Positions 1,121-29,220 of a DNA stretch of 41,699 nucleotides are shown piece by piece; positions within the stretch are counted from its first letter, which is position 1; every line of letters starts with the position of its first letter. This DNA comes from a virus: the IMG/VR virus record IMGVR_UViG_3300043409_000763, positions 1 to 41,699 of that record; one strand, given 5' to 3'. Made by a program: the position numbers and the translations under genes. The notes under the pieces are model-generated. The model had not been told where the DNA came from. It worked only from the letters and a program-made list of their open reading frames with translations, and searched no databases.

Positions 1121-4100
1121 ATGCCTTTACGTGGCCGGGTTATCTACGTTGACGATTTATATACGGTACCAGACGGAGAGATCGCCGTCTGGGGTTCAAA
1201 CATGTTCAATGCCGATAAGGGTACAGCCACGCCTGGCGCCGGGCAAGCAGAGGCAGCCGCAGGCCGTGACGGGTGGATTGGCGTTCCAACCAAGAGGGAC
1301 CCAGGCACATTCCTTACGGACGATGACCTAACTAAGTCCGACTTCTCAAAGCTCATGGACACCCAGCTCAAGAAAATCGAGGCTACGCTTGCGTCAGGTA
1401 GGGATGTCTACTTCCCATCAAAGGGCATTGGAACAAACAGGGCCAATCTTAAGTCCAGCGCCCCAGCAATCTGGGAGAAGCTCAATAGCCGACTAAGCGC
1501 ACTCGGGATTAGTAACGTGGCACCCGCCTCAGGGACTCGTGCTAGGAAGCCGACCGGGGGGTTCACCAGCCCAGATAGGGGGACGGTTCCAGTACTAGAA
1601 GGCAACGCGACGGCGGGAAACGCGCTAAAGGAAAACGTTGACGCCGTCATCGCTGCCGGCAAGATTGACCCCAAGGGCAAGGTAGAGGGTGGCACGGGCT
1701 GGGCTGTGGAAGGCGCACTGCTGCGCGGCATTCCGGTCTACGTGTTCGACGCCAGAGAAGAGCGCTGGCTGACGGCCACAGAGCCTCAGAAGTACTTTGC
1801 TGGTTGGAAGGTAGTTGATTCACCACCTACCAGCTTCAAGGATATTGCTGGAGTTGGTAGCCGAGAACTCACAGAGACGCAGTTCAACGAGATCGTTGCC
1901 TACGTAGATGGTCTAGATGAAGGCTATACCACCATCCATAGCGGCGGAGCTGGTGGGGCAGATACGGCATTCGAGGAGGCATTCGCCAAGCGGGGCGGCA
2001 AGGTGGTGTCACATTCATTTGAAGGGCACGCTCGTAAGAGCAAGGCACCCGGACAGCTAGTTCATACCCGCCCGGAGCTGGTTGCTGTTCGTCCAGAGGT
2101 GGACAAGATTGCCAAGTCACTTGGCCGTAGCATCTCGTGGGATAAGCCTGGACGTGCCTCCTATGACTCAACGGAACAACTGATCTCACGGAACATGTTC
2201 CAGATTGCACCTAACCGCAACCCTGAGGCTCTTGCCGCTAGGGCAAAGAAGCTTGACGTGGTCCTTGCCAACCGTGAAGAGATGGAAGCCGTAAGACTTG
2301 AAAACCTACGGAAGCGCGGATTTCCTGACACAAATCCATGGGAAATCCTAAATAACGTTTACTCTGGTAACAGTAAGAACGAGTTCCTTGCTGCGCTAAC
2401 AAACCGAACAAACGACCTGCCACGGGTACCTAAAACAAACGGGGCAACGAGTTCTTACGAGCACGGCAACATCAGCGAGCGGTTCCCAGTAGTGTTCAAG
2501 GGGAAGGTCTACCCATCAGCAGAGCACGCCTACGTAGCGAGCAACGCCTCTAGCGAGAAGGCCGAAACGGTTTCCGACGACGAGCTTCGCATCATGACAG
2601 AAGTCATCACTGAGAAGCTGCGTCAACACCCAGCGCTACTGACTAAGATCCAGGCCAAGATGTCAAAGCTGGGCGCTGATACCACAGGAACACAGTGGGC
2701 AGACGTCCTTGTGCATTGGACAAAGCGTGGCGGTCGATGGGAAGGCAATGGCCTAGAGTCACCGTTTCTAAAGGCGCTCGGAGCAGCAATCGACGCTGCT
2801 ATTGCTAGCCCGGAGTCCGCTGAGGACCCACGACTTATCCGTTGGATTCAAGATAAATCAAATCAAGTAAGCCTTCCTAAGCAGGGCGCAGTCAATATCC
2901 CACCAAATGCCTTTGGTGATGTGGCAGTTCAGCCGGTAACCGGCTCTGATAACATTAGAGCTGGGGCATCAGGCGAGCAAATGGACACACCAGAGGGCTT
3001 CACCACCAAGTTGATGCAAGAGTTTGCCAAGATGCGCGAAACTGGAGCCAGACAGTCTACTCTTGGGGCTAAGATCGATGGGTTTGAAGGACTGGACCCA
3101 CGGCAGAAGACGAATCTATACCGTACCTTGGGTGCATCAGGACCGTACGGATTTAGGTTTGATAGCCTAAACCAAGATCCTATCTCCGGAGTTAGCCCGG
3201 CACGCACTATTCGGGCGCGAATAAACGCTATTGCTGCGCGTATGGGCGTATCCCTGCCACCTGAGCTTGACTTTGCTCCCGGGAAGCCAATCATTGGCGA
3301 TAAGAAGACGGTAGCGCAAGTAATGGCCGACATGTTTATGGCTATTCGGTACATGAATACTGTTGAAGGACAGGGCGGTATCAGTTTTGACGGCGAAACA
3401 CGTGCCGAAATGGCGGCAATCATGCTAGAGATGTCGCGCACACTGCATGAAGTTGGCGATCCGTACTCATTGGCGATGATCAAGGGCCTGTCAAAGACCT
3501 CAAGCTCCGGCCAATACCTAGGATTGACCGCAAAGGCCAAGGAAGTTGAAGCACTTGGCGTTGACATGGTCGACGACACCGATGCGCCAGAGATTCGCGG
3601 TAAAAAGACTGGATCTCGCCTGCGACAGTTGGCTTCAGCGCAGGTTGGCATGGTACCAGAGTCTTCTCCACGCGCCACGGAGGCAAAGATGTGGCGTGCG
3701 CTAGAGCTTGACCTTGCACTTATTGACACCAAGACGCGTTTTAAAACTAAAGCGGTTTCGCGTGCCGGAGATAGCAAGGGTATCCCAAGCATTACTACCG
3801 ACAACGCCATCTATGACCTTCAGAAGGTAGTAGACGAGGTCGGCATCTGGGATGTTTCGAATGGTGGCGGTGACGATACGGCTTCTATTGACATTGACGG
3901 CTTTGTTGAGGGTGACGGCGGAGAAACATTTAGCCGAACTTTGGGCAGTCCGATCTCAGATTTGCTTGGTATTGATGAGGCAATGAATGTGGTTCGTCGA
4001 CACACATCAGTGAAGAAGCTAGAGAATCGTGGAGACTTCTCACTATTCAACTACCGTACTGGGTTTAAGTATCGATCACGACTTGGCGAGCAGGGCGTAA

Positions 4101-7100
4101 TGGGCGGAGACCAGCAGATTGAGGCACCAAAGGTTGAGCGCATTAAGGTAGACAAGCCAAATGTTGCTACACAGGCTGAATCTCTGCGACGTAGGATTCA
4201 TAATATTCGTAGCGGTATTGACGCTATGGATCGTTACGCAGCCGGGGTACTCATCGGGGCCGAGGATGCGAACGCTACCGGTGCCGTACGTCCGGTGCCA
4301 GAGCTAGAAACATACCGAGCAATGCCTGGCGGCGTTAGTGGAAAGCGCATTGCATTCCTTCGATATAAGGCAGTAGACGCAATCAAGACTCTGAATAGGG
4401 AACTTGATACGCTGATTGGGTCAAGCGGTACAGATTCTATTAGTTCGGGTCTAACCGAGTACGAAAGCGACTACCAGGCTGAACTTGCTCCAAAGTTTGG
4501 AGAGGGCGGAGCATACTCTGAGATGTATGGCGTTCAGTCTGCAGCTTCAGTGGCAACAGATACCATCAACTCTAGGGGATGGAGAGGGCTTATCGTAGCT
4601 GGTGAAACAGATCAAAAGGTAAAGCTTCCGCAATGGTATCTCGAGAAACGACGAGCCGCCTACGCCAAGTGGAAAGGTATCTTTGATGAGGTTGCACAGG
4701 TACACGGGCGAGACTACGCGACTGCGTACATGACCAGCGCAGAGGGTCTCACTCTCTACGGTGAAGAGCCACCTAAGTTTGTACAGGATTACGTCATGCT
4801 TAAGCCTGGAGACTATATGCTTCCAGACCCAATAGCTAGAGAAGTAGCCAGTAACAACCAGGGGATTATTCTAGACGTTGAAATGGATGCACTAGGAAAC
4901 GCTGTTACTGCAGACGGAAGAAGCATGGTTGAAGTTGGTGTAGATGTCTCTCCATCAAAGTCACCATTCAAGTTGCGCATTCGACCGATCGTATCATCCA
5001 AGTACCTCGTACTAAAGAACGGTACCGTAGTAGCCAATAGGTCTAGCGAGACAGGATTTATCCAGCACCGTAAGGTCTACCCGTTCCGTGTTGAGCGTGT
5101 AGATGGAGGCGGATACCGAGTAGTGCGTCTTGACGGATACCAGTTCCAGCATACTGACCCTAATCAAGTATACGATAATGAGGCACTGAAAGATACTCTT
5201 TCAAAGCTAGAAGAAGCATTTCCAGGAACGTTAGAAGATACTAGGGGTACAGCCTTTGAATCAAATCAGGCAACTGCGCTCTTAAACGAGCTGAATACGG
5301 CTATTGCTTTTGATGGTTACTCTTCGCTAGAGATTCTTGCAATCAATGGCGACATCTTCCCGTCGCTGGAGGCAGAGATCATTGGTTCAATCACAGAGGC
5401 AGATGGATTTTTCCGAGTCAGCAGGGCGCCTAACTGGACTAAGAGTAGAGCCGGAGGTGCAATCCACGCTATCTCTATGACTCCTGCAGAAAAAGCCCTT
5501 ACCAAGGTAAGCGCAAACCCAGAAGAGGCATTTATTGGGGAAGCTGATGTGGCTACGGTTGGCAAGATGCAAAGCTCAGTAGAGCCATCTGGAATGCTCG
5601 CCGGACAGCCAGCATATAAAATAACCACATATCCTGATTGGCTAGTCGAGGCATCCGGGGGCGAGGTTGCCAAGACTAAGATAACTGTTGGAACTCAGCA
5701 GGGATCACAGCGATATTCCGGCAGTATTCAGGGTCAAACCTTAACTCGTGATCAGGCTCTGGCTCTTACATCTCCGTCCACAACTTCAATCCAAAGGGCC
5801 ATTGGAGGGGCGTACACCGTTCATGATATTTTAGCTTCTCCAGAACTGTTCGGCCACACCGTTAAGACTGAAACTATGGACGGTGACAGTGGCGCTCTAT
5901 ACATCGTTCGAGCGCTCACATATATGTTGAGGCTTTCGGAAGAGGCGGTAGTTCAGATGGGCTACGGAAGCAGGTTCAGCAAGATGGACCTTGAGCGGTA
6001 TGGTCTTACCGAACCAGCAATCATGCTGGTTGATAAGTCAACTGCTATTGAGGCTGCAAGAATCGGTGGCGACACGTATGAGACCCTTGTTCGAGAGAGC
6101 CTTGACGCAGCCAGGCTCGCCGCTATGTCCCTGACAGAGGCGGCTAAGGGTACGCTTAGGAAGTCGTGGAGTGATTCTCTTGACCCTAAGTACCATCGAC
6201 ATGAGTTCCCATTGCGTACAGAGGTTGTAACTCCGCTTCAAGAATCAATGTATCCAATCTACCGCTTGCTTGAGCCAGCAACAGTTACCAGGGAGGGTGC
6301 CGAGGCTGTCACTACAGTTCTTGAGGGTGTGGCTCGTGGCAACTTCGTAGACCTGGCCCGTGTTTCAGGCGCTCTTGGAGACAAGGCAACTGCGTTCTAC
6401 ACTGCGTTCTATGCTCCGGCAGGCCTTCCAGATCCGAAGACTCTTGCGGGTATGTCAGCAGCCGAGCTAAACGAGAAAGCTGAATACTATACTTCGTTGA
6501 TTATTTCTGAAGCATCTAAGCAACTGAGAGTAGATCTTCGAGTTCCTGTAATGCCTATCCCAGAGCGCTTCAAAATCTGGGATGAAGAAAAAGGAATAGC
6601 AGTAGAACTGAAAGTAAAAGACTTCGTTGCTGCACTTTACGAGGGGGTAAAAGAAGCTAACCCACGAGAGATCTTGGCTTGGGAGCAGGGTCAGGGAGGA
6701 TTCTCTGGCCAAGAGGGCATGATGCAAATCGCCAAGCCAGACGGTACAGTTGAGGTTGTAAACGCTGCCGAGTGGCGTGCGCAAGCAAAGTCACGAAAGA
6801 TAGCTCGTGCTGTCGACGGATTCGACGCCACAACTGGACTTGACTCAGAGGGAATGGTAGTAGAGTTTGACATTAACTCAGAGTTTGACTATGCAGATAG
6901 TTTTGATGAAGGTGCGGAGCCTGTTGATGGCGTAAAGATGGGTAAGGCATCCAGCTCTGGATTCAAGTTTGCTAAGGCGGTTGCTGTTAGGTACAATAGC
7001 AATGGTGATATCCAAGCTGCAATCAGAGAAACACTACCAGACTTTACTGATATTCCAGAACTTGGAACTGCCGAAATGAAAATGTTCTTCCGAAACTTCT

Positions 7101-8323
7101 GGAAGACTCTATCTGTTGAGATGTCAGGTAAAATGGTTGGCCCAGCTATTGAGCGGGTGATTAGGACAATGATCGAGACTCAGGATGGCAAAACAAAGCT
7201 TGCCAACTCCCAAAGGATTTGGGTTCAGGACACCGATTCGCCTGTTGATGGTCCAGGCATTACGATTACATCTCAAGCTGGAGAGGGAGTTCCATCTAGC
7301 GTACCTGCACCAGAGGGTGGCTATCGGACTATAAATAAGACCGCGACAATCCAGCTTAACGATCAAGGGAAACTGGAAGTCAACACAGAGCACCTCCTTT
7401 CTCTTCTTGAGGGCAGACTTCAAGATAATGGAAAATATAGCGGGGGGCTTGACAGACTGGCTGCTAAGACTGATACTAGTTTAAGACAGCAAGCGTGGGA
7501 AGCGATTAGGCAGTACCTCAACGGACCAGAGTCCCTAAAGGCCCCATACGACTGGGGTACGCCTGGTCCAACAATGATCTCAATCAAGCGCGTCATTGAA
7601 ACAATCAAGACTGGTCGTATCCCATTTGTTGCCATTGATCCCCCTACGGACACACCGCTGAATATTCGATATGACGGTGGATCCACGGGAAAGCGGAAAA
7701 AGCAATCAACTAGCGGAGAGGATGTAGTCGATCCTAACGACTACGAGCACCTGCAAGACTCATATGCAGGCAGAGACTCCGATGATTTGTCCGGAGGCTA
7801 TACGGACACCGACTCCGAGATCATGGATCTTTCGGTCAAGCAGGGCAAGCTACTTGGCTTGCTGCAGCCAGATCAACTTGTACCTAAGTTTGGTCCGGGG
7901 CTGAAAAGCCTTGATGTCGGCCTTAGGACACCCAAAGGTAACTTTGCTGGAGGATTTGGAGCGGATGTCGGAATCATGGCCCTTCAGGGTAACCTTTCAC
8001 CAGAAAGCGCACTCTTCTCTGGCGCACTTAACTCCGTCAATCTGCTAACCAAGAGCCCATGGAAAGCTGGTCTCATTGGTTCCGTAGCAGGATTAGCGGC
8101 TACGGCAGCTACTGGCGGAGACATCGGGCGCACAATGTTCGGAATCGTTGGCTCCATCCTAGGCGGAGGCATCGGAGCATTCGCTTCCGGAGGTATCGGA
8201 ACATTCGTCGGATCTACAGCAGGCTCCCTTGCAGCAGACGAACTCTGGAAGGGACTCTTTGGTAGCAACGAAGGAATGCGACCAACAGTACAACCAATCA
8301 TACCAACTGTGAGGATTCCATAA
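1121..8323 (+). CDS. Giant 2400-residue phage protein with SLOG and NADAR-type domains and membrane tail
   Basis: Starts at ATG 1121 after a perfect AAGGAGG. Seen: residues about 19-130 (motifs VWGSNMF, GVPTKRDPGTFLT, VYFPSKGIGTNRANL) resemble a small domain that travels with NAD/ADP-ribose proteins. Residues about 155-240 hold the SLOG-type Rossmann motif GGTGWAVEGALLRGIPVYVFD. Residues 241-365 hold AGVGSRELT and the nucleotide-binding loop SGGAGGADTAFEEAF. Residues about 412-560 (RFPVVFKGKVYPSAEHAY, then GGRWEGNGLESPFLKAL) resemble NADAR/YbiA-like enzymes. Residues 570-2300 are mostly hydrophilic and unrecognised. Residues about 2316-2371 form a glycine-rich hydrophobic zipper. Known: SLOG and NADAR domains bind or process nucleotides and NAD derivatives, and long phage proteins carrying such domains (polyvalent proteins) are thought to be injected with DNA. 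Inferred: a virion-packaged, host-entering counter-defence or host-takeover protein. No protease, primase or methylase motif was found. Confidence 0.75.
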   Translation: MPLRGRVIYVDDLYTVPDGEIAVWGSNMFNADKGTATPGAGQAEAAAGRDGWIGVPTKRDPGTFLTDDDLTKSDFSKLMDTQLKKIEATLASGRDVYFPSKGIGTNRANLKSSAPAIWEKLNSRLSALGISNVAPASGTRARKPTGGFTSPDRGTVPVLEGNATAGNALKENVDAVIAAGKIDPKGKVEGGTGWAVEGALLRGIPVYVFDAREERWLTATEPQKYFAGWKVVDSPPTSFKDIAGVGSRELTETQFNEIVAYVDGLDEGYTTIHSGGAGGADTAFEEAFAKRGGKVVSHSFEGHARKSKAPGQLVHTRPELVAVRPEVDKIAKSLGRSISWDKPGRASYDSTEQLISRNMFQIAPNRNPEALAARAKKLDVVLANREEMEAVRLENLRKRGFPDTNPWEILNNVYSGNSKNEFLAALTNRTNDLPRVPKTNGATSSYEHGNISERFPVVFKGKVYPSAEHAYVASNASSEKAETVSDDELRIMTEVITEKLRQHPALLTKIQAKMSKLGADTTGTQWADVLVHWTKRGGRWEGNGLESPFLKALGAAIDAAIASPESAEDPRLIRWIQDKSNQVSLPKQGAVNIPPNAFGDVAVQPVTGSDNIRAGASGEQMDTPEGFTTKLMQEFAKMRETGARQSTLGAKIDGFEGLDPRQKTNLYRTLGASGPYGFRFDSLNQDPISGVSPARTIRARINAIAARMGVSLPPELDFAPGKPIIGDKKTVAQVMADMFMAIRYMNTVEGQGGISFDGETRAEMAAIMLEMSRTLHEVGDPYSLAMIKGLSKTSSSGQYLGLTAKAKEVEALGVDMVDDTDAPEIRGKKTGSRLRQLASAQVGMVPESSPRATEAKMWRALELDLALIDTKTRFKTKAVSRAGDSKGIPSITTDNAIYDLQKVVDEVGIWDVSNGGGDDTASIDIDGFVEGDGGETFSRTLGSPISDLLGIDEAMNVVRRHTSVKKLENRGDFSLFNYRTGFKYRSRLGEQGVMGGDQQIEAPKVERIKVDKPNVATQAESLRRRIHNIRSGIDAMDRYAAGVLIGAEDANATGAVRPVPELETYRAMPGGVSGKRIAFLRYKAVDAIKTLNRELDTLIGSSGTDSISSGLTEYESDYQAELAPKFGEGGAYSEMYGVQSAASVATDTINSRGWRGLIVAGETDQKVKLPQWYLEKRRAAYAKWKGIFDEVAQVHGRDYATAYMTSAEGLTLYGEEPPKFVQDYVMLKPGDYMLPDPIAREVASNNQGIILDVEMDALGNAVTADGRSMVEVGVDVSPSKSPFKLRIRPIVSSKYLVLKNGTVVANRSSETGFIQHRKVYPFRVERVDGGGYRVVRLDGYQFQHTDPNQVYDNEALKDTLSKLEEAFPGTLEDTRGTAFESNQATALLNELNTAIAFDGYSSLEILAINGDIFPSLEAEIIGSITEADGFFRVSRAPNWTKSRAGGAIHAISMTPAEKALTKVSANPEEAFIGEADVATVGKMQSSVEPSGMLAGQPAYKITTYPDWLVEASGGEVAKTKITVGTQQGSQRYSGSIQGQTLTRDQALALTSPSTTSIQRAIGGAYTVHDILASPELFGHTVKTETMDGDSGALYIVRALTYMLRLSEEAVVQMGYGSRFSKMDLERYGLTEPAIMLVDKSTAIEAARIGGDTYETLVRESLDAARLAAMSLTEAAKGTLRKSWSDSLDPKYHRHEFPLRTEVVTPLQESMYPIYRLLEPATVTREGAEAVTTVLEGVARGNFVDLARVSGALGDKATAFYTAFYAPAGLPDPKTLAGMSAAELNEKAEYYTSLIISEASKQLRVDLRVPVMPIPERFKIWDEEKGIAVELKVKDFVAALYEGVKEANPREILAWEQGQGGFSGQEGMMQIAKPDGTVEVVNAAEWRAQAKSRKIARAVDGFDATTGLDSEGMVVEFDINSEFDYADSFDEGAEPVDGVKMGKASSSGFKFAKAVAVRYNSNGDIQAAIRETLPDFTDIPELGTAEMKMFFRNFWKTLSVEMSGKMVGPAIERVIRTMIETQDGKTKLANSQRIWVQDTDSPVDGPGITITSQAGEGVPSSVPAPEGGYRTINKTATIQLNDQGKLEVNTEHLLSLLEGRLQDNGKYSGGLDRLAAKTDTSLRQQAWEAIRQYLNGPESLKAPYDWGTPGPTMISIKRVIETIKTGRIPFVAIDPPTDTPLNIRYDGGSTGKRKKQSTSGEDVVDPNDYEHLQDSYAGRDSDDLSGGYTDTDSEIMDLSVKQGKLLGLLQPDQLVPKFGPGLKSLDVGLRTPKGNFAGGFGADVGIMALQGNLSPESALFSGALNSVNLLTKSPWKAGLIGSVAGLAATAATGGDIGRTMFGIVGSILGGGIGAFASGGIGTFVGSTAGSLAADELWKGLFGSNEGMRPTVQPIIPTVRIP

Positions 8324-8856
8324 TGCCACCACGAAAAAACGTAAACCCAGACGGAAACAGTCAGTTTGACTTTAGCAAAGCTAAGTCGGCTATTCCATTT
8401 AGAACTCCAAACCTGACAAACCGAAGACCTGATATTAGTAACCTCAGGAACGATCCGAGAATGATGCAGGCTGGTGTGGCTAGCCCATGGAAAGCGATGG
8501 CCATGTTCACCGCTAAGCTCATTCGAAACGGACATACCGAAGATGCCCTTACGTCACTCAACGCCGCTATGCGAGTAGTGATGAAGGCTCCTAGGGGACC
8601 CGTTGCAACTAGGATGACTCGGGCAGTAGCAAGGGGTGGGATGGAAGAAGCAAACTCAGTTCTTAATGGAACACCATCAACGATCTCTTACCCTGGTATT
8701 AGAACTGTAGATGCATCAGCGTACTACCGGTCAATGTCTCAAATCCTTGGACGATACGCTGGACGTCTTCCGCTTACTTCAGGAGAGTCTGTTGCTGCTA
8801 GGGCAGCAGGCGTTGTACTAAAGAATCAAGCTAGGCTTTGGAGGAATATCAAGTAA
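8323..8856 (+). CDS. Basic hypothetical protein coupled to the giant protein
   Basis: 177 residues; the start overlaps the previous stop (TAATG), so translation is coupled. Rich in Arg, Lys and Asn with a disordered, basic N-terminus (PPRKNVNPDGN) and helical, alanine-rich remainder. No motif is recognised. The phrase ASPWKA also occurs as KSPWKA near the end of the 2400-residue protein, from a shared 14-base stretch, which may be chance. Its position between the giant protein and other basic small proteins suggests a virion or head-interior component. That is inference from context. Confidence 0.7.
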   Translation: MPPRKNVNPDGNSQFDFSKAKSAIPFRTPNLTNRRPDISNLRNDPRMMQAGVASPWKAMAMFTAKLIRNGHTEDALTSLNAAMRVVMKAPRGPVATRMTRAVARGGMEEANSVLNGTPSTISYPGIRTVDASAYYRSMSQILGRYAGRLPLTSGESVAARAAGVVLKNQARLWRNIK

Positions 8857-10088
8857 TGGCGCCACGTAGAAGCAACTTGATCCCAGACATGAGGGAGACG
8901 CGCTGGCCAACCCAGTCGTTCTCTAATCCGTACGGCCCGCAGAGGTATCGTACCCCTTCTATGGGTGGTGTCGCTAAGGCAAATAGCGGACTTGATATGG
9001 GTGGATTTCTTAAGTGGGGTTTCGGTGGTCCAGTAAGCCAGGAACAGAGACTTGTAAATCAGGCTAACGAGGACAAGTCTACAATAAACCTATTTGGAAA
9101 AACTGTCAAGACATCTGAAGTTATTGGCTTGGCTGCCACAGCTGCTCTTGGTGCTGCCGGTATCTATGCGGCACGAAGCGGCATGAAGGCTCGTGCATCT
9201 ACATCATCCTTAGCCGCATCAAGGGTTTCCAATGCTGCTACCATCTTAGCAAATCGCCGGGCTGCTGGCATTCAGTACAGAGATATTGTTGGCTATAACA
9301 GGGCAGCAAGGGTAGCGCGTGCTTCGACAAATGTTCGCGCTGCTCGACTTGTTCGAGCAGAGGCTGCGCTATTGGAATCAAACCCTCAACTCGCTCAGGC
9401 AGCTGGAGACAGAGCATACGCATTTAGGGCCGGCAGGACGATTAGATCAGAGATGGCGCAGTCGGGAACAATAGGTCGAGGTAGAAGGACTCTACCCAGC
9501 ATAGGATTTGGACCAAGACAAGTAGGGGCCAGAAGTTTCCCATACACAGATGGTCCGGCAGCAGGTTCGCACCACCAGTATACTCCAGTGAGCAGGTCAT
9601 TCCCAGGATCTAGGGACGGCGCAGAATGGCTTAGAAAGACTGAAGGATACTCGGATAGCTATGGGCGTACAGGTATGGAAAGACTAGTCGGGATGTATCC
9701 TGGAGGCGTTCCTAAGGGTGGATGGATGAGACAACCTAACCTTAGAAAGCGAACACCAACCCCTTCAAGGTGGGATACTGCACTTAAAGATCCTGTTATT
9801 AACGTTGGTGAAATGGAAGATGGACCACACAGGGATCGAGTAGTTTCTCTCCTCGATGATGCGACTGCCTTTAGGAACAGATCTGCCTGGAGACTTCAGG
9901 CAGATGGAAGGACCGCATTCCCTAAATCACACTCTTGGATTCACGATCCTGCATGGGCTCCTGAAGTTTACCAACTGAAAGTTATAAAGGCTGCTGAATC
10001 AAGAGCTAGATTGTCAGCACCTAAAAAGCGTATGGGATATGTCCACAGCTCAGTGGTCCCGCGCATTCAGTTAAAGAAAGGAAAGTAA
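8856..10088 (+). CDS. Basic protein with an alanine-rich hydrophobic helix; paralogue of 13559-14266
   Basis: I choose ATG 8856, which overlaps the previous stop as TAATG and has GGAGG upstream, over an in-frame ATG at 8838; the product is 410 residues. The first 70 residues are basic and Gly-rich. A likely membrane or packing helix follows (GLAATAALGAAGIYAARS), then a long Arg-rich region. The helix and its leading phrase (GKTVKTSEVI) align with the protein at 13559-14266, so the two are probably duplicates that diverged in their C-terminal parts. The last codons (10038-10069) are an exact copy of a 32-base stretch found again at 35546-35577, so the C-terminal tail may be a graft. A virion-associated role is inferred from the position. 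Confidence 0.7.
   Translation: MAPRRSNLIPDMRETRWPTQSFSNPYGPQRYRTPSMGGVAKANSGLDMGGFLKWGFGGPVSQEQRLVNQANEDKSTINLFGKTVKTSEVIGLAATAALGAAGIYAARSGMKARASTSSLAASRVSNAATILANRRAAGIQYRDIVGYNRAARVARASTNVRAARLVRAEAALLESNPQLAQAAGDRAYAFRAGRTIRSEMAQSGTIGRGRRTLPSIGFGPRQVGARSFPYTDGPAAGSHHQYTPVSRSFPGSRDGAEWLRKTEGYSDSYGRTGMERLVGMYPGGVPKGGWMRQPNLRKRTPTPSRWDTALKDPVINVGEMEDGPHRDRVVSLLDDATAFRNRSAWRLQADGRTAFPKSHSWIHDPAWAPEVYQLKVIKAAESRARLSAPKKRMGYVHSSVVPRIQLKKGK
10038..10069 (+). repeat. Copy A of a perfect 32-base long-distance repeat
   Basis: Starts TATGTCCACAGCTCAG and ends CGCGCATTCA; identical to 35546-35577. GG precedes both copies one mismatch upstream, and a gapped TAAAA(A)GCGT also precedes both. Here it is read in the frame of the basic protein's C-terminus (GYVHSSVVPRI). 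Confidence 0.95.
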
Positions 10089-10089
10089 C

Positions 10090-10238
10090 ATGCCGATGGT
10101 AGGTAAGAAGAAGTTTGCATACACCGCTAAGGGTAAGGCTGAGGCCAAGGAATATGCTTCAAAGTCTGGCAAGAAGATGGAAGACAAGGAAAAGGGCAAG
10201 GGTAAGTTTGTTCCGTTCAAGAAAGGAAAGAAGAAGTA

Positions 10239-10239
<1 letters not shown>
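10090..10239 (+). CDS. Tiny lysine-rich protein (49 residues)
   Basis: ATG 10090 follows AAAGGAAAG near the end of the previous gene and runs to TAA 10237-10239, whose last base starts the next gene. About a third of the residues are Lys, with the phrase KKFAYTAKGKAEAKEYASKS. Very short KKFxYTxxGxxxAK proteins of this kind are common among structural genes of aquatic short-tailed phages. Their function is unknown to me; DNA packing or head interior is a guess. The tight stop/start coupling on both sides supports it as real. Confidence 0.75.
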
Positions 10240-12065
<1,826 letters not shown>

Positions 12066-18028: not shown

Positions 18029-20764
18029 ATGGCACGACAAGGACGATTCGCACGAACTAGCGCGGGTTCTCAGAACATGAGCTCGCTGATCTATTCCCTC
18101 CTGCGCGAGGAAAGAAACAACCAGGAAGAGTCAATGTTGACTGCCTATGCGAACAACATGCGTAGCGGTACGGCTAGGAATAGCTATACCTCAAGTGGTG
18201 TCACAACTCCTGCAACTTCAGATTCTGTATACGCCTGGTATACGGCTCAGGCAGAACTTGCGCGAGACACCGGAGATAGCACCGGGTATGAGCGACTCAT
18301 GCAACGAGCAGAACAGTTCCGGCTTAGCTCGCTTAAGGATAAGGAAGACTTGGCCAGAAGCGCCTACTCTTATGGAACATCTGTGGATAAGTCTCTCTTT
18401 GGAAGCACCGGATCTGGGGCCCTTGATCTAGCTGAGTACGAAGCTATTCTTGACAAGATTGCCTCAGACCCGACTATGACTGATTCGGACAAAAGCCGTA
18501 TCAATCTGTCTAAGTTTACAGCCTCCCATAACTTCACTTCTTCCGAACTGATCCGTAAGTACAAGGCTGGAACTACCAGCGCCAACTCGTTGGTCTCTTT
18601 CTACGATAAGGAGCTTGCTCGCGCACGAGAGGCGGGCTTTACGGAAAGCAGCCAGCAGTATCAAGACATCCTAAACTCTAGGGCAGACGCTCAGGAGCGA
18701 TCCAAGGCAGACGTCGCTAAGGCTCGCGTTGACGCAGTAGGAGCAAGAATCAAGGACGAGCAGCTTTCTCTTGCTAGGTCTATTCAGTCATTGATCAAGC
18801 CAGTACTTTCCAGATACTTCAGCAGCCAAAACACAGTTGACTCGCTCAGTGCAGACATCAAGGGGGATGGGCAGGATTGGCTGATAGGTCTTCTTAACCT
18901 GTTCGATTCAAACAGCAGCAAGTCTCTATCAACACTTATTCAGGACGCTGGCCTTTCAGCTGGATGGGATCAGGCAACCATTGATACATTCTTTGAAAAG
19001 GTTAACTCTTTCTCTGATGAGGTTGATTCCCTATACGCTGCAGGATATATTGATGAAACTAAAGTACTCCGCCAGCTAGCTGGAGTGATCAATGCTAACG
19101 CATCTCAAGGTACATATAACGTTTCTATGCGCAATGCAACAAATGAGTTTAGCAGTTCAGTAAGTCAGGCTGGAGGCGCTATTACTGCGCCATTCTCATC
19201 TGACCCATATAAGTTTGTACAAGAGTTCAATGTCTGGAAGGGTTCGGCAACATCTATCTCTGAGTTAGACAAGTACGAAGACATCATTCTTGCTGACCAG
19301 GTTAGCAGGGTTGCCAATGGAAATATGGTAGACCTTTTCCCAGGAACGACTGCCACCACCATGGAGGAGTTCGTTGCTGAAGTTGCAGCTTCAACTGGCC
19401 TAGATGAACAGACGGTTATTCGATCAATCGGTACCCTATCGACTAACATTAACGACTATTGGAACTCAAACGACTCAGCTCTTGCTACTGTCGCTGCTCA
19501 GCTCAACGCAATGAGCAATGGAACAATCCGAGCCAATCTGGCACTTGGTATCTCTGGCGGCGGACAGGTTACTATTGGTACTATCTTCGGTAGTGCAGCA
19601 ACACAAGAACTTGTACGCGTAGTAGACGCAGACCCTAACCTAGTTATGGCTTATCAGTTTGACCCTCAATCAAAGTCAACTATATTTGTACCGATTCAAA
19701 ATACTTCCGTATCTAATGACTCGTCGTATGCTACTTGGTCAACTACGGGAAGGGCAAATGAGATTGTATACGTAAAGAGAGAAGCAGTTCGAACTCAGGG
19801 ATCAGGTACTAATGATGTCGGTGGAGAAGTAAAGATTAACGGAGCTACTCTGTACTATGTCCCAATCCCTGGTGGATCAAACTTTGCAGGGTCAACTGGA
19901 CAGTCAATGGACAATAATGACTACCTTGAGTTTGTCAGCGGTGGAAATACATATCACCTTACCCTAGCGGACTTAGAAGGTTTCATGGGAGATTCGGGTA
20001 TAGCCGGTACAACTCCTAGGGTTAGCAACACCGCCAACGGAGGAGTGATTACGATTGGAGATAGCCTCGCTCGAATCCTTGGTGGAACACAGTTCAATCA
20101 ATGGCTAATCGCTGGGTACTCATCCAAGGGTTCTGATTGGTATAACCGTGTTGTTACCGTAGGTAAAGATACTACTGGATCAAACGACTCGATCAAGGAC
20201 CTTGCGAGCTCTTATGCCCAAAGGGTTCTGTCGCAGATCCCAGTGGATTACACGGGTGATCTTACAGCAACTATTGGATCGTACCTAAAGAAGCTTGGCA
20301 TTACTGATAAGACTGGAAAACTAACTGGAATGATTTCAGATATCGTTCAGCCGCAACTTATTGACCCTGCCAGAGAGCAACAGAAGCAAAGGTACAAGGA
20401 CATCTATGGTTCAGGAGTCGATACATCTTACATTAACAACACAGACTACCCAGCGGGTACAGGCAGTGGATCTTCTATTGCACCTTATGGATATGGAAGT
20501 CAATCATGGCTAGACAGGAATCCGAGCATTAGCTCGCTACAGCTTCCACCAAACCAAACTCCTCCGTCAATCCCAGGTTCGTCTAGCACTGTTCCTAATC
20601 AGTCTCTTGGTCTTGGTCCGGCTTCTCCTCCAACTAGGGATCAGCTCGGAGGCCAGGATTGGTTTTTCAGGAACCTTGGTGGAGGCCTAAACAATAATAG
20701 CATTCAGACACCACCGGCTATTAATCCAGTGCGAGGAACCAACACTATTCCAAACAAGTTGTGA
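18029..20764 (+). CDS. Large virion protein, probable ejection (internal) protein
   Basis: 911 residues directly after the portal. The first 330 residues are mostly helical and charged, the middle is Ser/Thr/Asn-rich with beta-like stretches (TLYYVPIPGGSN), and the last 120 are Pro/Gly/Ser/Asn-rich and disordered. No enzymatic motif is seen, and I looked for a transglycosylase Glu/Ser motif without success. Two very large proteins between portal and scaffold are typical of the internal or ejection proteins of short-tailed phages. Function is inferred from length, composition and place. Confidence 0.6.
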   Translation: MARQGRFARTSAGSQNMSSLIYSLLREERNNQEESMLTAYANNMRSGTARNSYTSSGVTTPATSDSVYAWYTAQAELARDTGDSTGYERLMQRAEQFRLSSLKDKEDLARSAYSYGTSVDKSLFGSTGSGALDLAEYEAILDKIASDPTMTDSDKSRINLSKFTASHNFTSSELIRKYKAGTTSANSLVSFYDKELARAREAGFTESSQQYQDILNSRADAQERSKADVAKARVDAVGARIKDEQLSLARSIQSLIKPVLSRYFSSQNTVDSLSADIKGDGQDWLIGLLNLFDSNSSKSLSTLIQDAGLSAGWDQATIDTFFEKVNSFSDEVDSLYAAGYIDETKVLRQLAGVINANASQGTYNVSMRNATNEFSSSVSQAGGAITAPFSSDPYKFVQEFNVWKGSATSISELDKYEDIILADQVSRVANGNMVDLFPGTTATTMEEFVAEVAASTGLDEQTVIRSIGTLSTNINDYWNSNDSALATVAAQLNAMSNGTIRANLALGISGGGQVTIGTIFGSAATQELVRVVDADPNLVMAYQFDPQSKSTIFVPIQNTSVSNDSSYATWSTTGRANEIVYVKREAVRTQGSGTNDVGGEVKINGATLYYVPIPGGSNFAGSTGQSMDNNDYLEFVSGGNTYHLTLADLEGFMGDSGIAGTTPRVSNTANGGVITIGDSLARILGGTQFNQWLIAGYSSKGSDWYNRVVTVGKDTTGSNDSIKDLASSYAQRVLSQIPVDYTGDLTATIGSYLKKLGITDKTGKLTGMISDIVQPQLIDPAREQQKQRYKDIYGSGVDTSYINNTDYPAGTGSGSSIAPYGYGSQSWLDRNPSISSLQLPPNQTPPSIPGSSSTVPNQSLGLGPASPPTRDQLGGQDWFFRNLGGGLNNNSIQTPPAINPVRGTNTIPNKL

Positions 20765-20772
20765 GGTAGCAC

Positions 20773-23700
20773 TTGCCTTTTAAATATCAGCCTTCAGTAG
20801 CACCAGATCCATACGATCCTATCCTAAGCCGTGACATTCGAGTTGGAGTAAATCCAGCTCAGGGTACGGTTGACTTTGGTCGAGTAAATGAGATTGGTCA
20901 GCAACTGCAGTTTAATCCATCAAGGGATTCTAACCAGCAAGGTGATGTTGGTATTGCTGGATCACCTGACCTTCTAAGCTACGGAGCAAGCGTACCTATT
21001 CGAGGTATCGGGCTTCTTGCCGAGGGTATCGGCGGATCAGTTGCCGGTATCTCTGATATGATCAATAACTTTGGCCCAGCACGTGCTTACGCTGAGGGTC
21101 CAGGTAAGGTGGTAGGTGGGATCGGCGGGTCAATCCTTGATTGGATTGGTGGACCTGGTCGATTCGTACAAGATATCGGTGCTTCAATGCGCCTCCTATT
21201 CACCCGTAAGGAGGACTTGCCTCAGGACATCCAGGGCATGATGGGCATGGGCGCAGATCAGCAAGCGATCATCGAGTACATGCGAGAAACTGGTCGCTCA
21301 TTCTCTGACGACAAGACGATGAATCTTGCAGCGTCGCTGCTTCTTGACCCACTGAACCTAACTCCGTTTATATTCGGAAAGGTTGCCGCATTGCCAGCGG
21401 CGCTTAAAGTTGCTGGGGTGGGCCTAGGAGCCACTGCTGGTGCAGGCATTGGGGTTGCCGGGTTGGCCGGCGGCGCTGCGCTTGGGTACAAAACTGCAGC
21501 CACTGTTATCTCTAAGCTTCCTAAGTCACTAAGAGTCGGTGTAGGTCTTGACCTTAGCAGGAAGATTCGCCTTGTACAAGCTATGGAGGGGGCGGGCAGG
21601 CCACTCGGACAGCTATCTAAGTACAAGTATATTGCTGATATGCACTCGGGATTGTTTGATAAGGTGCGAGGTGTTAATGATGCCGTAAAGGCTGCATTCG
21701 CCTGGAAGACTACTGAGGCAATAAATAAGGCAATGCCTGGCGCATACGATACCATTGACACAATCGCAATGGGGCCATTCCCGAAGGGAACTGAGCGCAT
21801 TGCTGCTAGAAGGCTAGGACTTGCAAGCCAGCAGGCTGCTATGTCAACTGCACGCGACATGGAGTTTGCTGGGATCTCTGACGAGGCAGCAGCAGCAACG
21901 GAGACACTAGTGTCTGACGTTCTGACTGCCAGGCAGCTTATTAACTCCGGAGAAGTAGACATGTCTGTCACTCAGTATCTTACTAGGCAGGCATCTTCAG
22001 AGGGAATAAGTCTTCAGCGAAAGTACATGACTGATGAGCTTGGACTAGATAACGAAGTCACATCAATACTTGATACCGCATCGCGGCAAGGTGACAGCAT
22101 CCGGCTAAGTCCAGAAACTGGAGACCTCAGGCTGTGGAAGTCACGTCGAATCAATGATCTTAGATCAAGAGCAGTAACGCAGACTGGTCTTGACAAGGTT
22201 GACTGGCAACAGACAACTTCGGAAACATTGGCTCAACACTCTGATGAGATGACGAAAAGGCTAACCGGCCTTCTGATTAATCAGTCAGTCGATGAAGCTA
22301 CTAACGTAAGCTCTCTCAGGGCAGGAAATATTGTCACGACAGACGTTGTTGGTCTTGCTGACGAGCTAGCCAATGCATCATCAACTGCTATAGGTTCATT
22401 TGGAAGTAGGACAGCCGCTACCGCAGAGCAGTTGGATTACGTTGCAAAGACATGGCTCGGTGGAGCCAGATTCTCAAATGGTAGGATTGTTGGTGGTAAG
22501 TACTTTAGCGAAACTGGATTGCTCACAGAAAGCATGGGTCTTAGGTCTGAGCTGGGCAGACAGTTGGCTCTTGCCAGGCACCTTCGATATGGTTTCGTTA
22601 TTAACCGCACAGGTAATGTTCGTCGAGTATTCGCCGTTGCGCAGGGATTTGAGGCTATGAACGAGGTTAGGAAAGCTGCTGCACGAAAGGAAGTACAGCG
22701 CTTGACTGGCCGAGTGGTAAGTGATGAGCAGATGCGGATAATCGGATCAAACAGCAAGGTTGCCAGGATGACTATCCTGAGGGCAGACAGCCTTATTGAT
22801 ACTGAGGTTAGCAGATATCTTCAAGCTTATGCGCTACTGCAGAGAGCAGATACAACGATTGAGCAGCTTGCCCAGCTTGGGTTGCCGGATCGCATGGTTA
22901 GGGCTATCGCTCCTCTTTTGTCTAAGGCTAGGAAGGCTGAAGGATTTGACCCTACGTCACTTAACGCTCTGTGGGCTAGGTACGCCGGAGATCAGTTTGC
23001 TGATGTGCGTAACATGGAGTACGCATCTAGGGGTGGATCTGCAACGCCAGGTCAGGTAAAAGCATTGCTTGATTCTTCGCTAGCTAACGACGCAGCTTTC
23101 GTGGCCGCTAAAGAGGCAGACATTGCCGCAGTTAAGCAAGCATGGACCGCAGCTGGTGGCAGCGCCTCTGACATTTCCGGACTCGATGACTCTGTTCGCG
23201 CATCTGGATATAGGCTTGGCATTGCTCCAGAAAACGGTATCATTGAAGTTCCAACTACTATGTCAATCCCTGATGCTGCTCTTGGGGCTGTGCGTAAAGT
23301 AGTTATGAAGACAACGATGCCATACGTTGATATCACATCCGACTTCGTTGATGGACTACACGTATTCAAGGGTAGGCCCACAGAGGGCTTCTTTGGAAAC
23401 AGTCTCCGCAAAATGTTTGGAGCATCTTACCAGGCTGAGGTTAGTGGTCGGGCAAGGCAGAAGCTCATGGCTGTGCTATCACCTTATATGACACCAGATG
23501 AAATCGTTCTATTCGACGCTAAGATCAATGAACTTGCAGCACAAAAGCGCATCGGAGTTCGAGGAATGGTAAGCCCATTCGGAGGAAAGTCAGACATTGA
23601 AAATGCTGCTGACGCTGCAATCAAGGAGCTTAACGCCGGAGATAGCCTTGCTAAAAGAATATCCGACGCAGTAAGTAGTGGTAATCCTCGTTTGGATATT

Positions 23701-25713
23701 GACACAGCATTACTTCGAGCGTATGCTGGAGATATTAGTACATCTGGTTTGACCCAGTGGATTACCGGGCAGATCAAGGCACGTGGCATTCCTGGCATTG
23801 GCGCTGGGAAAATGATTGCTACTATGACCGAAAACTTCTACCCAACCCTTAAGTACTCGTACAACCCTCTGTTCTGGGCGCAAGAAGTTATTGAGTCACC
23901 ATTCTTTGCTGAAGCACGCGGCATTAGACGTGCAGAGATTGAAGAATCTCTAGTTAAGTCAGGATTTGTAAAGAGGGTTCCTGATGGAGAAGGCGGCTTT
24001 AAGATCGTTGCAGACCCGCAAAGTGTTCGCAATCTGCTCGGGGAACGCGGATCTGCAATCGCAAGGAACATGCACGAGGCTGCGTTTGGAACCCTAGTAG
24101 CCACTCGTAGCGGCATCCCTAGCACTCTAGTTGAATCGCTAGGAAGTGACTCTATGGTTGGTATGCTCAGACGCCTGAGAAGCAAGGGCGTTGGCAGCAA
24201 GCTTGATCAGATTGCCGAGTACAAGGAAGCCCATCGAGACATGATGGCCATTAAGACTACTGCGGAAGACTGGGCGAACCACATTTCTAAGACTCAGCCT
24301 CAAGCATATGTTGCACTGGCTGAGCGATATGGTAACGACGAGATGGATATGTTCCTCGGATACCTTGGTGAACACCGCCGAGTAGCAGACCTAGGTTGGG
24401 GAGGAGAAGCCGTTGACCACCTGCGTCGTCCAGGATTTGGCTTTGCAGTTAGGCCATCGGCAACTGGCCTTTCTAGGGCTAGAGCATCTGCTGAAACATA
24501 CGTACCATTCTCTGAGACACCGGAGGCTATGGAGCTTCTGCTAAACGGCAGGCCAAAGGACTATGTTCGGCTGGCTCGTATCAACGTTGTTGATGAGGCA
24601 AGAGCCGCAGGCTTTGACGTTAGCAATCTAGAGATTGAACTTAGGAACGTAGAGGAGGCTGCTCGACTAGTAAAGCGAGACCTTCCAACCTATGGAACTG
24701 AGGCAATCAAAGATTCAGATTCATTCAAGGCGCTGAGCCAGTCCGTAGCAAAGTTTAAGGACGAGGTGATCAACGGACTTGGTCGCCAAGCAACTAGGTC
24801 TCAGTTAGACGAACTGATTATTCGGCAGATGTATAAGCAGTGGGCGCCACAGCTCTTCAACATGGAGAAGTTTGACGACGTAATGCAGGCACTTGCGCAA
24901 GGACGTCGATATGGAATGAAGTTCCGTGGCATCGGCGGAGTTGTGCAGGAGATCTTTGATAGGGCTGGCGGAAACGGATTGTTCAACAAGACTACTGCCG
25001 AAGCAACTGCTCAGATTGAATCAATCGTAGAAAACCTATTCAAGATGCGTGGCTACGGAGTGCAGCAACAAACACGTCGCATTGCCCGCACCTTGCACGA
25101 TTCGGCCATTAGACTTTTGGAAGATCACGGAGCGCAGGAGACTTTTTTCCGTGCCACGAAGTTTAGATATCAAGAAGCGGCACGGCAAATGGACAAGGTC
25201 AACTACTTCAACCCTGACCGTGGCCTGGTCGAGAGGACTATGAATCACCAGTTCCTAGGACTATATCCACTATCTTACATGTTTGGAAAGGTTCTTCCGG
25301 AGACTATGCGGTTCCTGTTCTGGCGACCATTTGGTGCGACTGCACCTGGCGCAGGATTCCAAGCTTACAAAAAGATTACAGATTACTTGGGCGAAGAAGG
25401 GTTTGCACCTGACTTTGAGGCTAACGGAATGCAGCGACCAGACTACCTATTCCTACTTTCACAACTGATCCCGGGACATCCTGACGACATTGGAGTCGGT
25501 GTTCCTGGATGGCTTAGGCGGTCGGTCTCAACCGTCTCGCGCCAGGGCTATGACCAGCTAACGGCATCGGGAATGTTCGGTGAGGTCGGTAAGGCCTTCA
25601 CAGATACAGGATTCCTTGGTGCAGGCAGCACGGCCATATCTGGCCTACAAGAGATCCTATCCGGGTATCCTGAAAAAGAGGATACCGGAAATGCATTGAC
25701 AACACTGCGCTAG
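20773..25713 (+). CDS. Very large ejection-type virion protein with glycine-zipper membrane region
   Basis: 1646 residues from a TTG start preceded by GAGG at the end of the previous gene. Residues about 70-135 are Gly/Ile-rich (GIGLLAEGIGGSVAGI), and residues 185-236 form a long hydrophobic Gly/Ala-rich stretch (AGVGLGATAGAGIGVAGLAG), likely membrane-inserting. The remainder is long and helical with many Arg, Ala and Glu; aromatic-rich segments near 1030 (YNPLFWAQEV) and 1510-1530 (MRFLFWRPFGA) stand out. No catalytic motif is recognised. Such proteins are stored in the capsid and leave with the DNA to build a channel across the envelope. It could also be a divergent tape measure, but it lies before the capsid genes. 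Confidence 0.6.
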   Translation: MPFKYQPSVAPDPYDPILSRDIRVGVNPAQGTVDFGRVNEIGQQLQFNPSRDSNQQGDVGIAGSPDLLSYGASVPIRGIGLLAEGIGGSVAGISDMINNFGPARAYAEGPGKVVGGIGGSILDWIGGPGRFVQDIGASMRLLFTRKEDLPQDIQGMMGMGADQQAIIEYMRETGRSFSDDKTMNLAASLLLDPLNLTPFIFGKVAALPAALKVAGVGLGATAGAGIGVAGLAGGAALGYKTAATVISKLPKSLRVGVGLDLSRKIRLVQAMEGAGRPLGQLSKYKYIADMHSGLFDKVRGVNDAVKAAFAWKTTEAINKAMPGAYDTIDTIAMGPFPKGTERIAARRLGLASQQAAMSTARDMEFAGISDEAAAATETLVSDVLTARQLINSGEVDMSVTQYLTRQASSEGISLQRKYMTDELGLDNEVTSILDTASRQGDSIRLSPETGDLRLWKSRRINDLRSRAVTQTGLDKVDWQQTTSETLAQHSDEMTKRLTGLLINQSVDEATNVSSLRAGNIVTTDVVGLADELANASSTAIGSFGSRTAATAEQLDYVAKTWLGGARFSNGRIVGGKYFSETGLLTESMGLRSELGRQLALARHLRYGFVINRTGNVRRVFAVAQGFEAMNEVRKAAARKEVQRLTGRVVSDEQMRIIGSNSKVARMTILRADSLIDTEVSRYLQAYALLQRADTTIEQLAQLGLPDRMVRAIAPLLSKARKAEGFDPTSLNALWARYAGDQFADVRNMEYASRGGSATPGQVKALLDSSLANDAAFVAAKEADIAAVKQAWTAAGGSASDISGLDDSVRASGYRLGIAPENGIIEVPTTMSIPDAALGAVRKVVMKTTMPYVDITSDFVDGLHVFKGRPTEGFFGNSLRKMFGASYQAEVSGRARQKLMAVLSPYMTPDEIVLFDAKINELAAQKRIGVRGMVSPFGGKSDIENAADAAIKELNAGDSLAKRISDAVSSGNPRLDIDTALLRAYAGDISTSGLTQWITGQIKARGIPGIGAGKMIATMTENFYPTLKYSYNPLFWAQEVIESPFFAEARGIRRAEIEESLVKSGFVKRVPDGEGGFKIVADPQSVRNLLGERGSAIARNMHEAAFGTLVATRSGIPSTLVESLGSDSMVGMLRRLRSKGVGSKLDQIAEYKEAHRDMMAIKTTAEDWANHISKTQPQAYVALAERYGNDEMDMFLGYLGEHRRVADLGWGGEAVDHLRRPGFGFAVRPSATGLSRARASAETYVPFSETPEAMELLLNGRPKDYVRLARINVVDEARAAGFDVSNLEIELRNVEEAARLVKRDLPTYGTEAIKDSDSFKALSQSVAKFKDEVINGLGRQATRSQLDELIIRQMYKQWAPQLFNMEKFDDVMQALAQGRRYGMKFRGIGGVVQEIFDRAGGNGLFNKTTAEATAQIESIVENLFKMRGYGVQQQTRRIARTLHDSAIRLLEDHGAQETFFRATKFRYQEAARQMDKVNYFNPDRGLVERTMNHQFLGLYPLSYMFGKVLPETMRFLFWRPFGATAPGAGFQAYKKITDYLGEEGFAPDFEANGMQRPDYLFLLSQLIPGHPDDIGVGVPGWLRRSVSTVSRQGYDQLTASGMFGEVGKAFTDTGFLGAGSTAISGLQEILSGYPEKEDTGNALTTLR

Positions 25714-28393: not shown

Positions 28394-29220
28394 TGGACTT
28401 CACAAAGCCAGTAAAGATCTACACGTCTGCGACAGAGTACGTAGACATCAATAACCTGGCCGACATGAAGCGCGGCCCTAAACCCATTACCGGATTCAAG
28501 TTGGATCAGGCTGGGTACGAGGCGTCCCCTGTTCGCGGGTATGTGGATCAGCGCGCTCTTCGTGACGGGGTAGACTACACTGAGCCTTTCCTGGGCGCAC
28601 GCCAGGTTCAGCTTGCTGTCTCAGTGTACGGAGAAACACTAGGAGACTTCTGGGATCAGATTGACGTACTAGCAAAAGCACTATCACCAATGCCTAATGC
28701 CTGGACTGCGACCTATGGCATTAGGCCTTTGCGTTTCTATCAGCCAACAAGGTCTCAGGCGTCAGACTTCCCATACGGCATAGAGCTAGAGATTGGAGTT
28801 CGTCCTACAGGCCTTATCCAGTTTAGCGCAACTAGGGCTATGTCCGTGGGCATGGAGACCGGAGGATTCTCCCAGCGAGTGGTTGTTCCTCTGTTTGCTC
28901 CCGACCCACACAAGAGGCACGTCAACCTACGAGCGCTGCCTAGCTCAAACCGTGGCTCAGAGCCATCCTACGCCATCATTAGCGGCACAGGCACAATAGA
29001 CACGCCAGTGGCGGTTACATGGACCCACAGTGGCGGAAAGACGTCTACGATCACAATCATCCCCACCGCAACCGGGGCGTTCACGGCAGAACTAGACAGG
29101 ATGGTACTAAGTAACTGCAGGATTGACCACGTCGGTACAACCGGAGACTTCCAGGTATACCCTGGGTCATCAACTGTGTCAGGCAGCCTAACCATTAGCT
29201 TCTACGAAAGCTGGCTATGA
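28393..29220 (+). CDS. Distal-tail-like (Dit) protein
   Basis: 275 residues, start in TAATG. Shows the Dit pattern: GARQVQLAVSVYGE (first beta barrel), a helix with IDVLAKALSPMPN, then the galectin-like half ending VVVPLFAPDPHKRH, where APDP is typical, and a C-terminal beta domain. Dit forms the ring between tail tube and hub in siphophages. Here no tail tube or tape-measure gene is recognisable next to it, so the ring may sit almost directly under the neck. Overlaps the hub gene by ATGA. Confidence 0.75.
   Translation: MDFTKPVKIYTSATEYVDINNLADMKRGPKPITGFKLDQAGYEASPVRGYVDQRALRDGVDYTEPFLGARQVQLAVSVYGETLGDFWDQIDVLAKALSPMPNAWTATYGIRPLRFYQPTRSQASDFPYGIELEIGVRPTGLIQFSATRAMSVGMETGGFSQRVVVPLFAPDPHKRHVNLRALPSSNRGSEPSYAIISGTGTIDTPVAVTWTHSGGKTSTITIIPTATGAFTAELDRMVLSNCRIDHVGTTGDFQVYPGSSTVSGSLTISFYESWL

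Follow-up and report, generated by a model that had tools for sequence, protein, structure and literature searches.

A giant phage protein of 2400 residues was found to begin with three modules of a putative ADP-ribose/NAD type, namely DUF7831, a single circularly permuted SLOG domain and a shortened NADAR-like domain. It is encoded by a single open frame on the plus strand (positions 1121..8323) of the window, by which we mean the whole stretch of DNA analysed, a virus record of 41,699 bases. An earlier note on this DNA had described an N-terminal series of domains resembling NAD/nucleotide-handling modules; the motifs it quoted do sit in their places in the 2400-residue frame, and all three modules were recovered above chance and are kept in related phages. 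Our reading, to which we give a probability of about one half, is that this is a virion-borne protein of the polyvalent type, the ADP-ribose/NAD-handling head of which would counter early host defence. When the whole protein was searched against Pfam, DUF7831 was the sole family above the cut-off, and a DprA match remained below threshold.

The SLOG domain departs from the usual order of its family. PHROG_768, a family named DprA-like, matched the window protein with an E-value of 5.6e-19, in two out-of-order pieces (8e-8 and 1e-11). With a profile built from 60 normal-order phage SLOG domains, the C-terminal half of the domain, with the motifs GGTGWAVE, VYVFD and GVGSRE (1634..1900, plus strand, residues 172-260), matched profile positions 92-175 with 76.9 bits, and the N-terminal half (SGGAGGAD ... 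RNMFQI; 1928..2209, plus strand, residues 270-363), which follows it in the chain, matched positions 6-91 with 46.1 bits. Together the two complementary pieces covered positions 6-175 of 185, with a sum of 124.8 bits. As the pieces run from 92-175 and then 6-91 without overlap, they represent one circularly permuted copy. When the halves were rotated, a single match was obtained (positions 6-173, 127 bits), and a rotation scan had its maximum at the same junction. Two incomplete copies were rejected, because the pieces are exactly complementary and rotation yields one full-length match; the suspicion of a permuted Rossmann fold, voiced before together with that of two copies, thus turned out to be real, as a single permuted copy. 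An assembly artefact was likewise rejected, because four other loci share the order.

These four are relatives of the window (L046-L049) and belong to a set of 80 IMG/VR loci that the SLOG profile retrieved; they and the window show the motif order GGT-GIGTR-SGGA-RNxxQ. Of the 76 other loci, 71 begin with SGGA, and the motif was unrecognised in five. In the tree, the permuted SLOGs formed a single clade (100/100), nested in a group (96/83) of SLOGs that come solely from ORFs of at least 900 residues. Because GIGTR lies C-terminally in PHROG_768 and DprA-type proteins start with GIGTR, the window SLOG looks twice rotated, and its permutation would probably be a second rotation.

In an AF2 model of residues 151-575, blocks with pLDDT of about 84-98 extended over residues 171-340, with alternating strands and helices. 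The model was made from a 68-row alignment in which the SLOG halves came from separate rows, since rows were chosen until their placement was right (MAFFT misplaced mixed SLOG/NADAR fragments). A Foldseek search with the permuted-SLOG model returned half-length DprA and LOG matches only, none with an E-value below 0.001, as is to be expected because Foldseek follows the chain order and the domain is permuted. The earlier calls of a SLOG, a NADAR-type and a permuted Rossmann module are backed by profile, structure-model and comparative evidence.

It is the DprA-like character of this domain that provides the main rival to our reading, namely that the SLOG binds incoming ssDNA or nucleotides and aids the start of replication or transcription, with no counter-defence. 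We regard this as unlikely, yet besides the name of PHROG_768 the company of the domain in other giant proteins lends it weight. Two N4-type virion RNA polymerases, those of Klebsiella phage Pylas (L001/L050) and of contig L074, carry the PHROG_768 SLOG immediately ahead of the polymerase region, which in L074 matched PHROG_2206 with an E-value of 1e-140, and SLOG stands beside PIF1/Dda-type helicases in L079 and L150. N4-type virion RNA polymerases belong to a class of giant proteins for which packaging is known. The window SLOG likewise lies within a giant protein; in Pylas and L074 it is in normal order and followed by the polymerase, whereas in the window it is permuted, and an N4-type RNA polymerase identity for the window protein was ruled out since a PHROG search gave no such match. 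Binding of ssDNA has also been proposed for the DprA-like SLOGs of jumbo phages (PMC7824862). On the other hand, the repeated fusion of SLOG with NADAR, NADAR-like and DUF7831 modules points to ADP-ribose chemistry, and the remaining domains of DprA were absent from the window protein in the Pfam search, which gave a short Rossmann match alone.

Outside the window clade, SLOG occurs together with NADAR or NADAR-like modules in long phage ORFs of six loci (L051, L111, L113, L149, L150 and L159), and in L051 the partner is a canonical NADAR. Among the 80 SLOG loci, 41 have the domain in an ORF with 550 aa or more, a count that includes near-duplicates and ORFs cut by locus ends. A PHROG_768 SLOG was also found near the C-terminus of a 4328-residue protein of crAss phage cr113_1 (L002/L025), the giant frame of which is open only if TAG is a sense codon. 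In Agrobacterium phage Atu_ph07, a stand-alone PHROG_768 gene is located two genes from an NAD synthetase.

The third module (2351..2803, plus strand, residues 411-561) matched the local HMM of a NADAR-like family with 8.9e-37. When this family was compared with the whole PDB, the top two matches were E. coli YbiA (E 0.0017) and the NADAR enzyme 8bau (E 0.086); hhalign against phage NADARs gave a probability of 97%, and the iterated local HMM retrieved phage NADARs at 1e-11 to 1e-15. The window protein was not matched by the Pfam NADAR model (PF08719). Of the NADAR call made earlier, homology to solved NADARs thus stood, but a Pfam match did not, and by these comparisons the module is a divergent NADAR-like domain and not a canonical NADAR.

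We then compared the residues E43, K50, R79, W89, R93, E/D/H125 and W133, those contacting ADP-ribose being taken from a solved NADAR-ADPR complex (PMC11543638). Like NADAR/YbiA proteins (PF08719), which are guanine-ADP-ribose hydrolases (PMC11543638), the window domain has the SAEHAY glutamate, kept as E468, and the KLRQHP helix region; H532 could plausibly correspond to the phage-type histidine, and W540 to the conserved tryptophan. It differs from them in being shorter: in the alignment, the helical segment with R79, W89 and R93 is missing, and the equivalent of K50 is N475. As ADP-ribose-contacting residues are missing, catalysis is not to be assumed, and a domain that binds without catalysing is a live possibility. 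Activity on ADP-ribosylated guanine is described for an E. coli phage NADAR (PMC11125620). Members of the NADAR-like family stand alone in Variovorax and in phages, and occur as modules in giant proteins of 2170-3013 aa on cyanobacterial plasmids (L021-L024, L132-L145), several of which were typed as conjugative. One of these plasmid giants is annotated as ribonuclease H, and two copies occur in Calothrix NIES-4105.

The first module, DUF7831 (PF25176; 1181..1486, plus strand, residues 21-122), matched Pfam with an E-value of 2.5e-15 in the whole protein and 1e-16 in the fragment. We know of no described function for this family. Its AF2 model (pLDDT 86, pTM 0.80) showed a predicted alpha/beta fold, for which the top PDB match in Foldseek was the TARG1 macrodomain, a weak one (E 0.073, TM 0.42), and a search of BFVD with the same model gave macro matches from rank 10 downward. 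A sequence search of the PDB did not find a macrodomain, with TIM and FabG at chance level only, and a macrodomain by sequence was rejected because such matches were absent. The models thus suggest, as a weakly favoured option, a macro-like fold. Between the window and its sister phage G001 (46.1 kb), DUF7831 had a dN of 0.07 and a dS of 0.64, which indicates purifying selection.

In BFVD, DUF7831 is also present in the giant eukaryotic viruses Tupanvirus, Hyperionvirus and Yasminevirus, a range similar to that reported for NADAR and SLOG, which occur in phages and giant viruses (PMC9503650). The crAss giant protein cr272_1 in BFVD folds similarly to DUF7831. Furthermore, a 2087-residue ORF (L031:1-6261) carries a cpYpsA SLOG (PF12694) followed by DUF7831 and is an independent DUF7831-SLOG pairing. 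The cpYpsA domain ('circularly permutated YpsA SLOG family') is a permuted SLOG too; it belongs to another subfamily with another permutation point, and the window SLOG is related to PHROG_768 and did not match PF12694.

Single-sequence scans of IMG/VR returned no relatives of the head and one of the body, so alignment-based scans were required. The ortholog of the giant protein in G001 has 2569 aa and is 67-71% identical; in a comparison of the genes of the two phages the giant protein stood at 66%, against 94-95% for terminase and portal. Further orthologs were found in L046-L049, L153, L155 and L157, and L003 is an ortholog over the C-terminal half. The arrangement DUF7831-SLOG-NADAR-like is shared by the window, G001 and L046. 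An additional module lies ahead of the SLOG in L047/L048, the SLOG is lost in L155 with a short remnant of its start left, and L157 has a cpYpsA-type SLOG segment and no DUF7831. In every relative with the C-terminus in hand (G001, L003, L153, L155 and L157), the glycine-rich tail was retained (8069..8254, plus strand, residues 2317-2378), also under different heads. It is clear from these comparisons that the head modules are swapped, gained or deleted over a constant tail, like exchangeable payloads.

In L157 the cpYpsA-type segment (L157:3858-4980, SGGQTGAD) occupies the place of the window SLOG, and its C-half-like stretch (YEVRTRINASQSDFT), recognised by eye, stands at the front; a second, parallel permutation may therefore have occurred there. 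A conserved extra module of about 110 residues with the motif FYYHYTEAGNGD is shared by L047/L048, L155 and L157. No family was found for it in Pfam, PHROG or PDB, and an ADP-ribosyltransferase reading made by eye was unsupported by these searches. The tail itself had been taken for a membrane-type glycine zipper. A glycine-rich tail is present, but its six GxxxG in 82 residues (at most three elsewhere in the protein) were reached in 486 of 2000 composition shuffles, and its hydrophobicity is mild, so the case for a membrane zipper is weak.

The missing ADP-ribose-contacting residues of the NADAR-like module and the loss of the SLOG in L155 would also suit a structural or ejection protein, the head modules of which are decaying, or only ligand-binding or structural, with no counter-defence. 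This we find doubtful, as the SLOG and NADAR-like motifs are still 51-57% identical across distant relatives and DUF7831 is under purifying selection.

The genome setting bears on whether the protein would be carried in the particle. On its 3' side and on the same strand, the gene is followed by those for a collagen-like tail fibre, terminase, portal and major head protein, and after the head-protein block come the replication genes for a Cas4-like exonuclease, Erf and a DnaB-type protein. Nearly all genes tested in the window were kept in G001, and on the shared map the giant gene is flanked by the replication genes on one side and the tail-fibre/terminase genes on the other. The earlier statement that it heads a virion operon therefore needs amending: virion genes do come next on the same strand, but replication genes lie on its other side. 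The gene order of the window (1121-11887 against 12066-39683) recurs in G001 but is broken there at another point, which makes a circular or terminally permuted genome probable. In the virion block (18029-25713 and 29217-32024), three large proteins of 911, 1646 and 935 aa had no family assignment, the exception being a weak carbohydrate-binding-type match of the 935-aa protein. The window terminase had no match in the phage collection. An enzyme that works inside the cell and is produced after infection, at a late or intermediate stage, would fit the position of the gene outside the capsid block and the usual occurrence of viral SLOG/NADAR domains as stand-alone, often early, genes (PMC9503650), but it is improbable, as the size of the protein, its constant tail under a variable head, the adjacent tail-fibre gene and the parallels with virion RNA polymerases all favour packaging.

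By analogy, the window protein fits the pattern of injected polyvalent proteins (Iyer et al. 2017, PMC5512222), which are likewise giant, combine disparate domains in one chain and are located near virion genes, and the modules of which are common to phages and conjugative plasmids, as is the NADAR-like module here. They differ in that SLOG, NADAR and the macro domain are unmentioned in the main text of that paper, and zincin, ART, MuF and the other listed polyvalent domains were not found in the window protein with Pfam. The same chemistry-linked domains (SLOG, NADAR, Macro, DUF4326 fusions) make up the viral NAD/ADP-ribose networks (Iyer et al. 2022, PMC9503650; jumbo phages, PMC7824862), proposed to counter host ADP-ribose signals (PMC9503650); there they typically stand alone, whereas the window has them inside a protein of 2400 residues, together with DUF7831 and with the SLOG re-permuted. 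A giant virion protein that begins with an enzyme is also known from P23-45: its tape-measure protein is fused to an RNA polymerase that transcribes the pre-early genes (PMC10770324), and the virion status is established there, whereas it is predicted for the window protein.

The earlier note had read the protein as one that enters the cell with the DNA and blunts NAD-linked defences, and the polyvalent pattern lends this partial support. For the 2400-residue protein we infer packaging, injection, enzymatic activity and a defence target as follows. The virion-borne protein would be packaged in the phage particle and enter the host together with the DNA, with the long body and glycine-rich tail as carrier and the cassette of DUF7831, permuted SLOG and shortened NADAR-like module as payload. 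On entry, the head would oppose early ADP-ribose-based host defence: the SLOG may bind or cleave nucleotide signals, whether cyclic-ADPR-like or others, while the NADAR-like module may bind or remove ADP-ribose on bases or small derivatives; the head might also bind or process ADP-ribosylated DNA. The SIR2-SLOG ThsA effectors of Thoeris are reported to be turned on by cyclic ADPR isomers (PMC11204291). More tentatively, it is possible that giant proteins of the virion, namely ejection proteins and virion RNA polymerases, with swappable ADP-ribose heads are a general strategy to neutralise NAD-linked defences of the Thoeris/DarTG type at DNA entry. The window protein would then be a variant in which the SLOG has been re-permuted, and DUF7831 would be an unrecognised toolkit member.

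The window clade is a clean example from nature in which a single rotation of a Rossmann-type domain took place inside one phage clade, and DUF7831, found in phages and giant eukaryotic viruses, is now tied to ADP-ribose-linked modules. The recurrence of SLOG in long ORFs, at about half of the loci and in two virion RNA polymerases, makes virion delivery testable. Should the head indeed arrive with the particle, its action on NAD-linked defence would begin at time zero, ahead of all phage gene expression.
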